DNA of 47,506 nucleotides from Planctomycetota bacterium (GTDB lineage: Bacteria > Planctomycetota > Planctomycetia > Planctomycetales > Planctomycetaceae). The translations under genes and the position numbers were made by a program. Numbering within the stretch: position 1 is the first letter of the stretch; each line of letters opens with the position of its first letter. The notes beneath the pieces are model-generated. The model made no database searches and was not told where the DNA came from. It was given only the letters and a program-made list of their open reading frames with translations. The stretch is taken from NCBI GenBank assembly GCA_003670925.1, contig QWQG01000092.1, forward strand, positions 1 through 47,506, in the 5' to 3' direction. Positions 36,415 to 39,074 of this stretch are shown here, one piece after another.

Positions 36415-36839
36415 ATGCAGAGAAGCACTTTCTGTCCCGTCACAAACCTGCTGAGGGACCGTTTTGAAGATTCATTCAGGTAAAATAAACCACAGCATGG
36501 TTGCTCACACGCTATCCTGCAATCCCTGTGGCTGCGTCTTTATTTGCTTCACCTTCGGCATTTTTTTGAGGAAGCGGCTGGTGCTGGCGGTTTCGGCACG
36601 CCGTATTCAAGGTTAAACCGGAAGTTGGCGTCAAATTAGTCCCTGAAGATTACGTCGAGTTTCAGTAGGCGTTGGCAAAAATTTGGCCCAGTATTTCGAA
36701 TCGAAGCGTCTGCTGGAATTCCCAACCCGCAGCCCGAACGGTACGATCATTACTCGTGGCACAGGATTCAGTGCATTTTGTGTCATCCCATGTTTTATGC
36801 GGCAGAATACCGCCGCATTTCAATTCAAGGAATTTCCTG
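36415..36839. other. Divergent intergenic region
   Basis: About 425 bp between the beta-helix gene and the aldehyde dehydrogenase. A longer frame of the dehydrogenase reaches 36672 but its added residues are not family-like. No other gene, repeat or clear promoter seen. Confidence 0.5.
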
Positions 36840-38351
36840 ATGTCGACGTCTTCGATCGAGCAAACCACGGATACCCAACTGCCACCTGCTGTTGCGCAGT
36901 TTCTGGCCGCGTCTGTGCATAAGTCTTTTGTTGGTGGACGGTGGGTTGAAGCCGCAGATGGGCTGACTTTTGATGTGCTCAACCCGGGGTCGGGTGACAA
37001 GTTCGCGACTGTAACCAGCTTGAAAAAACCGGACGTTGATCGGGCAGTTGATGCGGCAGTCGATGCATTCCACAACAGCGGTTGGGCCAAGATGCAGGTT
37101 GCCGAACGGGCTGCGTGCTTGCATCGTATCGCGGACGCTGTCGAAGCTCGTCGTGACGAATTCGCCACGATCGAGGCCTTGGACTGTGGCAAGATTTATA
37201 CGCAAGCCGTCGGCGACGTGCAGAATTTCATTGATACTTTCAGATACTTTGCCGACCTGTCGCAAGCGGTAAATTATCGTCAGGTGATCGCGGTCAAAAA
37301 TCACGAAGCATGGGTTTCACGTCATCCGTGGGGTGCTTGTGGTTTTATTATTCCTTGGAACTTCCCATTCTTGCTGGCAGGTTGGGGACTTGCCCCGGCG
37401 TTGGCTGCTGGCAACACCTGCGTCCTAAAGCCTGCGGAAGACACACCGCTTTCGGCGCTGTATCTGTGCAAGGTCATTCAGGAACTGGAACTGCTGCCAG
37501 GTGGTGTACTGAACGTGGTCACTGGTCTTGGCGAAACGGCCGGTGCGGCATTGTCCCAGAATCCGAAATTGCGGCGCATGAGCTTCACTGGTTCACCGGA
37601 GGTCGGTCGTCTGGTGGCCGAAGCCGCTGGACGCAACCTGATCCCTGTCAAATGTGAACTCGGCGGCAAGGGTGCAGCCGTGATCTTTAATGACGTGGAT
37701 ATCCCGGAAACTGCAGCCAAGCTGGTCCAAGCAATCACGTTCCATAGCGGACAAGTTTGCTGCGATGCGACGCGGTGGCTGATTCAACGCGATATCTACG
37801 ACGACTTTGTTGACGAGTGCATCACGCGCATGAAGTCGGTGCAAATCGGTTACCAGATGGATCACGACGCGCAGATGGGACCCCTCGTTAGTGCTAAGCA
37901 GCGAGATCGTGTCTTGAGCTACCTCCAGAAGGGTGTTGAGGGGGGAGCTGACTTGATTCTGGAAGGCGGAGAGGCTCAAGTTCCTGGCAAGAAAGGTTTC
38001 TACGTCAAACCCGCGCTGTTGGCAGGTTCGCTTAACAACGTGGCAGCCCGCGAAGAAATCTTTGGCCCGGTCGCTTTCCTTGCCCCGTTTTCGAATGAAG
38101 AAGAGGGTCTGCGGTTGGCGAATGACACCGAATACGGGCTTGGGAATAGTGTCTGGTCGCGCGACCTGCAACGCTGTGCTCGAATTGCTGAAGCCTTCAC
38201 AGCAGGCAACGGCTGGATTAACGCACACAACGTCATTGTTCACGGCGTGCCGTATGGTGGTGTTGGGAAAAGCGGTATGGGCGGTGGTGTGATCAGCCCA
38301 GATACGCTGAATGATTACTTGCGGCCGATTTCTGTCGTGCGACCTTTGTAG
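36840..38351 (+). CDS. NAD(P)-dependent aldehyde dehydrogenase
   Basis: 503 residues. Family signatures are IIPWNFPFLLAGWGLAPALAAGN and KPAEDTPLS (cofactor site), FTGSPEVG, CELGGKGA with the catalytic-type Glu near 272, and SGQVCCDATRW with the nucleophile cysteine near 304. The class is closest to betaine/gamma-aminobutyraldehyde dehydrogenases, but substrate cannot be read. The ATG at 36840 follows AAGGA at about eight bases; an upstream extension to 36672 is not supported. Confidence 0.94.
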   Translation: MSTSSIEQTTDTQLPPAVAQFLAASVHKSFVGGRWVEAADGLTFDVLNPGSGDKFATVTSLKKPDVDRAVDAAVDAFHNSGWAKMQVAERAACLHRIADAVEARRDEFATIEALDCGKIYTQAVGDVQNFIDTFRYFADLSQAVNYRQVIAVKNHEAWVSRHPWGACGFIIPWNFPFLLAGWGLAPALAAGNTCVLKPAEDTPLSALYLCKVIQELELLPGGVLNVVTGLGETAGAALSQNPKLRRMSFTGSPEVGRLVAEAAGRNLIPVKCELGGKGAAVIFNDVDIPETAAKLVQAITFHSGQVCCDATRWLIQRDIYDDFVDECITRMKSVQIGYQMDHDAQMGPLVSAKQRDRVLSYLQKGVEGGADLILEGGEAQVPGKKGFYVKPALLAGSLNNVAAREEIFGPVAFLAPFSNEEEGLRLANDTEYGLGNSVWSRDLQRCARIAEAFTAGNGWINAHNVIVHGVPYGGVGKSGMGGGVISPDTLNDYLRPISVVRPL

Positions 38352-38702
38352 TCAGTTGATGCGAACCGAGCGTCAGCCGAATGGCACTCGATTTCTTCTA
38401 TCAGCCGGTACGCGCTAGCGGGATGTTGATTTAGGGCGATTATTGGGGGCTCCAGTCATACAAACCCGAAGCGCCAGCGAGGAATTCAACGATTACGGCC
38501 TCGCTGGCGCTTCGGGTTGGTATTAAATCGACAACCCGCTAGCGCACTGCGGCTGAGACAATTTGAATCAAATTGAGTGCCATTCAGCGTCAGCCCCCCC
38601 CGAACTTGTCGTATATTGAGAAGGCCAATTTTCGCAACCGCTTTGCTGCATGCTGCGGGCGGTTCTGCGTTTCATGGCAGATTCATGCAGGAATGACTTT
38701 CG
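38352..38702. other. Aldehyde dehydrogenase-cupin intergenic region
   Basis: Most of this 350-bp gap is filled by the palindromic element at 38369-38595. The rest shows no gene. Confidence 0.6.
38379..38585. mobile_element. MITE-like nested palindromic element with flanking direct repeats
   Basis: Three nested inverted repeats share one centre. Outer: GAATGGCACTCGATTT (38379-38394) with AAATTGAGTGCCATTC (38570-38585), one mismatch. Middle: 33-bp imperfect arms 38401-38433 and 38524-38556, sharing GCGCTAGCGGG. Inner: perfect 20-bp arms 38463-38482 and 38499-38518, AACCCGAAGCGCCAGCGAGG. The 10-bp sequence AGCGTCAGCC lies directly outside both ends (38369-38378 and 38586-38595), as expected for a target-site duplication. 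No coding potential. Confidence 0.75.
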
Positions 38703-39074
38703 ATGGCTGAACAGCCTCCCTCGACAATTCGCCGCTGGAAACAGGCCGACTTTGCAGACATCGCAGGCGTGCCGTGTCCGTGTGGAACTGCCCGGCGCGC
38801 ATTTACCGATGTCGCCGAATTTCCAGGGACAGTTCATGTTACAGAAATCGCGGAAAATGCTGAGAGACATTACCACAAGACGCTGACGGAGACCTATTTC
38901 TTTCTCAAGTGCGAAGACGACGCTCAGATGGAGCTGGATGGCGAGATGATTCCCATCCGCGAGCACCAGTGCATTGTCGTCCCTCCCGGCGTCCGTCACC
39001 GCGCGGTGGGCCGCATGACGGTGCTGATCATCGTGCTGCCGAAGTTCAATCCGGAAGACGAATGGTTCGATTGA
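38703..39074 (+). CDS. Cupin-domain protein
   Basis: 123 residues. Conserved cupin motif 1 is seen as HYHKTLTETYFFL, motif 2 as IVVPPGVRHRAVG; likely metal ligands are the histidines and glutamate there. Cupins of this size are sugar-phosphate isomerases, dioxygenases or ligand-binding proteins; activity unassigned. ATG at 38703 with AGGA about ten bases upstream. It is separated from the dehydrogenase by the palindromic element and from clpC by 505 bp. Confidence 0.85.
   Translation: MAEQPPSTIRRWKQADFADIAGVPCPCGTARRAFTDVAEFPGTVHVTEIAENAERHYHKTLTETYFFLKCEDDAQMELDGEMIPIREHQCIVVPPGVRHRAVGRMTVLIIVLPKFNPEDEWFD

Follow-up and report, generated by a model that had tools for sequence, protein, structure and literature searches.

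The window analysed here is a stretch of 47,506 nucleotides (contig QWQG01000092.1) from the draft genome of a planctomycete (5.78 Mb, 259 contigs, 99.5% complete). Between two co-directional genes, which an earlier, sequence-only reading had correctly recognised as encoding an aldehyde dehydrogenase and a cupin, lies a near-palindrome of 207 bp (Table 1). Exactly the same 10 bp, AGCGTCAGCC, are found on both of its sides and, without mismatch, nowhere else in the window (with one mismatch, they occur at eight places vs. 3.2 expected). Because these direct repeats are flush with the ends GAATGGCACTCGATTT..AAATTGAGTGCCATTC, leaving no gap as noted in that reading, the element comprises positions 38379-38585. 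The three inverted repeats listed at the same time were all found again, i.e., an outer pair (38376-38394/38570-38588; arms of 19 nt, 89% identity), a middle pair (38396-38433/38524-38561; 38 nt, 79%) and an inner pair (38458-38482/38499-38523; 25 nt, 96%, with a perfect core of 20 bp). They were thought to share a common centre, which is nearly the case; however, the centres lie at approx. 38482, 38478.5 and 38490.5, respectively, and a loop of 24 nt (38434-38457) is present on one side only of the inner palindrome. As single-stranded DNA, positions 38365-38600 fold into the one very long hairpin that had been foreseen (-74.7 kcal/mol, z = -11.0), a stability reached by none of 200 shuffles. 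The ORF list of the window contains no frame of at least 80 aa inside the element, again as described earlier, and a minus-strand frame of 190 aa overlaps its last 18 bp. A known structured RNA was ruled out, with no Rfam match at gathering score in the whole window.

Table 1. Features of the 207-bp element and its flanks (window coordinates).
Feature	Position	Strand	Basis
Aldehyde dehydrogenase gene, flanking	36672..38351	+	ORF as listed, true start may be further in; PF00171
Left 10-bp target-site duplication, AGCGTCAGCC	38369..38378	+	Exact match with 38586-38595; within-locus 10-mer agreement in 20 copies
Left terminal inverted repeat of M layer (IS4-type MITE), GAATGGCACTCGATTTC	38379..38395	+	Similar ends on IS copies in G014, G047 and G023
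Left part of REP-like repeat T2, TCAGCCGGTACGCGCTAG	38401..38418	+	T2 motif at 38402-38420; T2-type palindromes flank a RAYT clade in relatives
CTAG left of B layer	38415..38418	+	Suggestive 4-bp duplication only
Left terminal repeat of B layer, CGGGATGTTGATTTA	38419..38433	+	B-bounded units of 117-120 bp in 14/18 short units
Remainder of B loop, offsets inner palindrome	38434..38457	+	Similar sequence in own C48, C196 and C233 and in G001 copies
Left arm of REP-like pair T1, ATACAAACCCGAAGCGCCAGCGAGG	38458..38482	+	T1 pairs flank RAYT genes
Right arm of REP-like pair T1	38499..38523	-	Inverted repeat; genome-wide T1 pattern matches
Right terminal repeat of B layer, TAAATCGACAACCCG	38524..38538	-	Motif map
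CTAG right of B layer	38539..38542	+	B-unit comparison
Right part of REP-like repeat T2, CTAGCGCACTGCGGCTGAG	38539..38557	-	Inverted repeat; motif map
Right terminal inverted repeat of M layer, AAATTGAGTGCCATTC	38570..38585	-	Inverted repeat; motif map
Right 10-bp target-site duplication, AGCGTCAGCC	38586..38595	+	Exact match; within-locus test
Cupin gene, flanking	38703..39074	+	Cupin_2, PF07883

Motifs were mapped in 43 stretches taken from matches (the window, 40 stretches of its own genome, C155 and C85; G, C and L numbers denote genomes, contigs and loci), and the module order of the window is M> T2> B> T1> <T1 <B <T2 <M. A 227-bp query returned the self match followed by many partial matches that cover different parts, and the outer part of the element belongs to repeat families other than T1. 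Judged by these families, each of the nested palindromes is an element of its own, with T2 inside M, B inside T2 and a pair of T1 repeats inside B. The label of a MITE-like element given by the sequence-only reading is therefore apt for the outer layer, an IS4-type MITE with a target duplication, but not for the whole, which is not one MITE with three nested arms. In particular, the perfect inner arm is not an arm of the MITE but belongs to another repeat family, and the genome contains the transposase gene cognate to that family. The same reading saw decayed outer arms around a perfect inner arm of 20 bp. The inner arm is indeed perfect, whereas much of the mismatch in the middle arms is a normal asymmetry of the repeat, because both forms recur in sister copies. 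After CAGCCG, the left middle arm continues with GNAC and the right one (as reverse complement) with CAGT; by eye, the right form is also present in C193, C256 and C142, and the left form in C193 and C256. Arm identities (0.97 for T1, 0.81 for T2, and 0.88 for M) are unusable for dating the layers relative to one another, because asymmetry is inherent to T2 arms. Over 58 arm pairs, within-pair identity is 0.82 vs. 0.72 after shuffling (maximum 0.76), a covariation in which relatedness is uncontrolled and which is no proof of selection.

The 207-bp palindrome is most likely a small non-autonomous transposon that inserted between the two genes and duplicated 10 bp of its target. In the source genome, the M end pattern has 31 matches with at most one mismatch (one for the reversed control). 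It was found in 14 of 59 genomes, of which only the own genome (31), G001 (10) and G014 (10) are well above chance, because the reversed control has a single match in 11 of the 59. Every pair matching the end pattern in the mapped own-genome stretches was compared (n = 20, two probably false). Within a locus, the 10-mers flanking these M-bounded pairs share on average 8.1 of 10 bases, whereas 10,000 shuffles have a mean of 5.74 and a maximum of 7.1; the two 10-mers are the same in seven pairs (0.65 expected, shuffle maximum 5), and their middle four bases coincide in 12 (1.66 expected, shuffle maximum 7). The low scorers are L244 (6), L269 (6) and L274 (0), the latter two being probably false pairs. 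The common form of the target is GGCNNNNGCC, and the 10-mers vary from locus to locus, with matching examples such as GGCTGCTGCC, GGAACTGCCC and GGCTCACGCC (each present twice at its own locus), GGCGTGAGCC and, in the window, AGCGTCAGCC. Among seven further M-bounded stretches, the 10-mers are identical in four (L303, L312, L313 and L314), agree at 8 of 10 positions in L298 and L301, which are identical to each other, and score 6 in L304. Matching within loci while differing between them, the 10-mers beside the M ends are, by this comparison, target duplications. L298 (G003:C463) and L301 (G009:C295) contain an identical M-bounded element with identical 30-nt flanks in genomes listed as different species of the genus, which may reflect a shared locus, very close kinship or cross-contamination; the interior of this element folds much less regularly.

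The direct repeat could, alternatively, be a part of the outermost repeat family, since the core of T3, GGGCGTCAGCCC, is nearly its own reverse complement and its halves would flank an element centred in it. Indeed, T3 palindromes beside T3-type RAYT genes contain GGCGTCAGCCC, the two flanks of one MITE (L244 on C98) are inverted rather than direct, and the flanks of several full-length IS copies are inverted or match poorly. Nonetheless, 10-mers that are not of T3 type match within loci (GGCTGCTGCC on C232, GGAACTGCCC on C137, and T2 cores in G001 L312 and L313), the match is destroyed when partners are shuffled, and two full-length IS4 relatives carry such duplications. The within-locus matching of non-T3 10-mers and the shuffle test overturned AGCGTCAGCC as a mere part of the T3 family, and this explanation appears improbable. 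The same observations answer a doubt voiced in the sequence-only reading itself, namely that the direct repeats might simply belong to the palindrome family.

The target preference of IS231 was the initial pointer to the IS4 family. A candidate parent is found in G014 (L296 on C108), in which two M-type ends, with the terminal inverted repeats CAATGGCAGTCACTTTG..TAAAGTGAGTGCCATTG, lie 1.5 kb apart around an ORF of 384 aa, which exceeds the cutoff of the NCBIfam IS4 model (118.4 vs. 115 bits) and also matches DDE_Tnp_1. The end form of subgroup IS4, -AATR--------WTW, is fitted by both GAATGGCACTCGATTTC of the window and CAATGGCAGTCACTTTG of G014. By eye, the YREK region of the G014 transposase, YQRRYDVEHDIRDLQ, has Y, R and E, with Q at the last position; the fragment from the own genome has K at this position and lacks Y. 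The own genome holds a single decayed copy of the transposase (G000:C226, two fragments, 90 and 93% identity), so that a transposase with similar terminal repeats, as envisaged earlier, exists both there and in G014. Relatives of this transposase, some of them partial or broken, occur in seven of the 59 genomes at E ≤1e-20, G014 and the own genome included. Among eight distinct full-length IS copies with two ends, the duplication is 10/10 in G047 (L318) and 9/10 in G023 (L320); the unshifted flanks of the other six score 6 (G014), 5 (own C226), 4 (L323), 3 (L327), 2 (G050) and 2 (G049). When shifted, 11-mers agree by eye at all 11 positions in G049 and at 9 in L327. In L323 and the G050 copy, the flanks are, by eye, inverted and not direct, as would be expected for copies at a palindrome centre without a clean duplication. 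The window element thus combines the lack of a transposase with dispersed copies and a parent IS with similar ends, as is usual for a MITE. Judged by its ends and by these relatives, the outer layer M is an IS4-family MITE, and its interior holds elements of other kinds.

Two of the inner layers, T1 and T2, are REP-like repeats. The inner arm CCCGAAGCGNCAGCGAGG is found at 50 sites of the genome with ≤1 mismatch (none for the reversed pattern), which bears out the expectation that the sequence is not unique in the genome. The exact T1 pattern was found in 20 of 59 genomes (reversed control, 0) and the T2 pattern, with ≤1 mismatch, in 16 of 59 (reversed control, single matches in four). T1 pairs flank a Y1 transposase (RAYT) gene on both sides in the own genome (L033 on C136) and flank RAYT genes in relatives, e.g., in G024 (61% identical), and T2 palindromes flank, in relatives, a clade of RAYT genes distinct from the T1-flanked ones. 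For typing, palindromes within 450 bp were considered for 46 RAYT-like genes from the fetched loci, a subset of all RAYT matches, and none of the 46 has palindromes of more than one type. The RAYT tree comprises 39 of these 46 rows (L143, L145, L147 and L149-L152, which are short, weak or without a typed palindrome, were left out); eight of the 39 are labelled 'other', including L209, with one T2-like match on one side only. The own Y1 genes on C170, C158 and C85 are outside the tree, having no match to the query used. T2-flanked genes form one clade (100/99) given that L209 is untyped, and not one clade if L209 is counted as T2; T3-flanked genes form one clade (96/93), and T1-flanked genes are clustered without forming one clade (5 changes; 12.5 when shuffled). 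Over all labels, the tree needs six changes vs. a shuffled mean of 19.9, with none of 200 shuffles as low. The Y----Q motif is present in 15 of 16 T1-flanked and 3 of 5 T2-flanked RAYT genes, and matches to the HUH pattern applied were obtained in 13 of 16 and 4 of 5, respectively; the own RAYT contains YIQEAQ and HVH. A PDB sequence search with the RAYT gave no match. The T1 consensus ACTAACCCGAAGCGCCAGCGAGG lacks the canonical foot GT[AG]G, and T1 is therefore not a canonical GTAG REP; it contains CCGA, which is compatible with a CnGA foot.

Within the T1, T2 and T3 groups, the only RAYT genes found in the own genome are of T1 type (C136 and C155), the other three Y1 genes having different flanks by eye. 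This fits the suggestion of the sequence-only reading that the inner part may be newer, but it is no proof, because drafts often miss mobile genes and other genomes keep T1 without the gene: G001 and G003 have 59 and 39 pattern copies, respectively, without a match to a T1-type RAYT, and G004 has 59 T1 copies and a RAYT that is only 46% identical. Several T1-related or RAYT-related loci of the own genome have peculiarities of their own. Two of the Y1 genes, L031 (C170) and L034 (C85), adjoin, by eye, palindromes of their own, of GGCCCGGAGGGC and TGCGGCAGCCCTGCTGCCGC type, respectively. At L033 (C136; 1342-1480), the frame of the T1-type RAYT runs into the downstream repeat, an arm of which has short tandem copies (a repeated VSEG peptide). 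T1 pairs lie in frame within long ORFs at L009 (C242; 1501-1566) and L030 (C155; 1501-1600); by eye, these ORFs resemble a type I methyltransferase and a helicase, and the added peptides include TLTRSASEA..SLALRVG. Homologues of the methyltransferase-like gene were found in nine of 397 genomes, the own included, and the linker at this place is too variable for a boundary test.

Units bounded by the remaining layer, B, have the ends CGGTCTGTTGATTTA, are of near constant length over all loci (117-120 bp in 14 of 18 short units) and are located in the CTAG-like cores of T2 arms. The 4-bp repeats beside B are identical in 8 of the 18, a number reached by 256 of 10,000 shuffles, and two copies have matching repeats other than CTAG (CTGG and CTTG), which is only weakly suggestive of a target duplication by B. 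No parent IS for B was found among the loci fetched. The terminal repeats are clear, and they suggest that B is a second MITE-like unit.

Around the 23 complete T1 pairs, modules point inward in 26 of 27 cases on the left and in all 27 on the right; M is present on both sides of 15 pairs, and six have no module on either side. Other module orders occur as well, such as T3 M T1 T1 M T3, T2 M T1 T1 M T2, M beside T2, and B around T2. Copies of the same order are not independent events, because they might descend from one composite. A T2/T3-like 8-mer half-site (one mismatch allowed) lies at most 41 nt outside M in 13 of 20 copies, vs. 5 of 48 pairs of equally sized control windows lying another 120-220 nt outward (Fisher p = 1e-5); that of the window overlaps its own 10-mer and is weak. 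With a looser M end pattern, which includes many false pairs, the half-site was found in 24 of 51 pairs (control, 15). Half-sites beside M, together with the varied palindromic interiors, argue that MITEs enter REP cores and that palindromes occupy the loops of MITEs. It might be objected that the whole nest is one old composite, spread by the RAYT pathway alone, whose IS4-like ends are incidental. T2/B/T1 cores do recur in the closest relative, G001 (13 copies fetched, the longest listed matches to this core), as does, in the own genome, the combination of M and T1 with a 31-nt loop. However, M ends are also found around different interiors (T2 on C256 and C142; other palindromes on G001 C28, G001 C160 and own C176), the B/T1 core is also found without M ends (own C48 and most of the 13 G001 copies), and the M ends are the only layer that coincides with a 10-bp duplication. 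A composite of this kind is, thus, quite improbable.

To place the element among relatives, 30 cupin loci (own included) and a further eight, partly the same places, were compared. Besides the own locus, an aldehyde dehydrogenase gene lies upstream of the cupin gene in G001 (L118), G014 (L119) and G012 (L120), whose cupins are 89, 79 and 77% identical and whose intergenic gaps measure approx. 94, 167 and 107 bp, respectively, vs. 351 bp in the window. The element is absent at all three syntenic loci. Orthologous loci without the element, as the sequence-only reading had anticipated, therefore exist, although the insertion junction is not readable to the base in them because the intergenic sequence has diverged. 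The element is probably selfish DNA that is tolerated between two genes. That the nest is kept because its hairpin serves the host, e.g., as a transcription terminator or mRNA stabiliser, is highly improbable. In its favour are the exceptional stability of the hairpin (z = -11), the shared direction of the flanking genes and, by eye, the imperfect form in the window of a terminator-like stem that relatives have between the genes; against it, three relatives do without the element and a consensus scan of 38300-38760 found no terminator-like or promoter-like site.

It is, thus, likely that the element is an insertion of an IS4-type MITE with a duplicated target, the interior of which is a nest of T2, B and T1. 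What the sequence itself shows is the layered build, duplicated targets at M ends, IS4 and RAYT genes whose ends or flanks match, and the lack of the element in relatives. M would have entered the gap between the two genes, and the simplest timing is after the split from the three relatives that lack the element. In the probable mechanism, an IS4 transposase acting in trans would cut the M ends and insert them into the GC-rich, quasi-palindromic GGCNNNNGCC, sites of which would occur at the cores of REP repeats; B would have chosen the CTAG cores of T2 in a similar manner. RAYT enzymes, i.e., single-strand HUH/Y1 nucleases, would have copied REPs such as T1 and T2 into the loops. The order of insertion could be read from M, which is the layer flanked by the duplicated target of this locus, and the result would be concentric because each newcomer enters near a palindrome centre. 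In a wider and still tentative model, which we consider possible but somewhat doubtful, MITEs and REPs of these planctomycetes would be reciprocal hosts: MITEs land in REP cores, REPs of different RAYT families refill the loops, and the composite, bearing ends recognised by two unrelated systems, can be spread by either enzyme (DDE cut-and-paste or single-strand HUH). Within this context, concentric palindromes can arise by ordinary means, as palindromic cores are preferred targets and mobile elements therefore pile up at one another's centres. Such a nest lets part of the order of events be read and raises the testable question of whether two unrelated transposases are able to move a single short DNA. 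It would also account, in genome annotation, for a class of structured intergenic repeats in Planctomycetota.

It is already known that insertion sequences can target REPs and that REPs can lie inside longer palindromes, whereas no description of an alternating nest of MITEs and REPs was found in the open-access literature, to which the search was mostly confined. Members of subgroup IS4 are described as elements of 1400-1650 bp with ends of the form -AATR--------WTW----, direct repeats of 10-13 bp and possible MITEs, and some of them have strong insertion preferences (PMC2266710). The M ends fit this form, the 10-bp duplication is in this range, and the G014 transposase passes the NCBIfam IS4 cutoff; unlike the full elements of the subgroup, the window element has no transposase and an interior full of REP-like repeats (PMC2266710). 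Class 3 TnpA-Y1 genes, which carry a Y----Q motif, are associated with atypical REP-like repeats and are found mainly in Planctomycetes (Quentin et al. 2018, PMC6006769). The RAYT genes considered here resemble them in Y----Q, HUH, flanking multi-copy palindromes and planctomycete host; for the own RAYT, this likeness is one of motifs and description rather than of a class-3 profile, and the CCGA of T1 is compatible with a CnGA foot (PMC6006769). In contrast to the class 3 repeats as described there, the T1 unit forms a long hairpin as a pair (PMC6006769). Insertion sequences entering REPs have been published, e.g., ISRm22, which, like the element proposed here, belongs to the IS4 family (PMC1525189); here, however, REPs are also found inside the MITE, in several alternating layers (PMC1525189). 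REP dimers inside longer palindromes, comparable to the T1 pairs enclosed by another palindrome, are reported for A. variabilis, T. roseum and H. neapolitanus (PMC3733652). In the relevant part of that report, consensus sequences represent the outer palindromes, to which no element is assigned, whereas here different palindromes occupy the outer layer, which in the window consists of IS4 ends with target duplications (PMC3733652).
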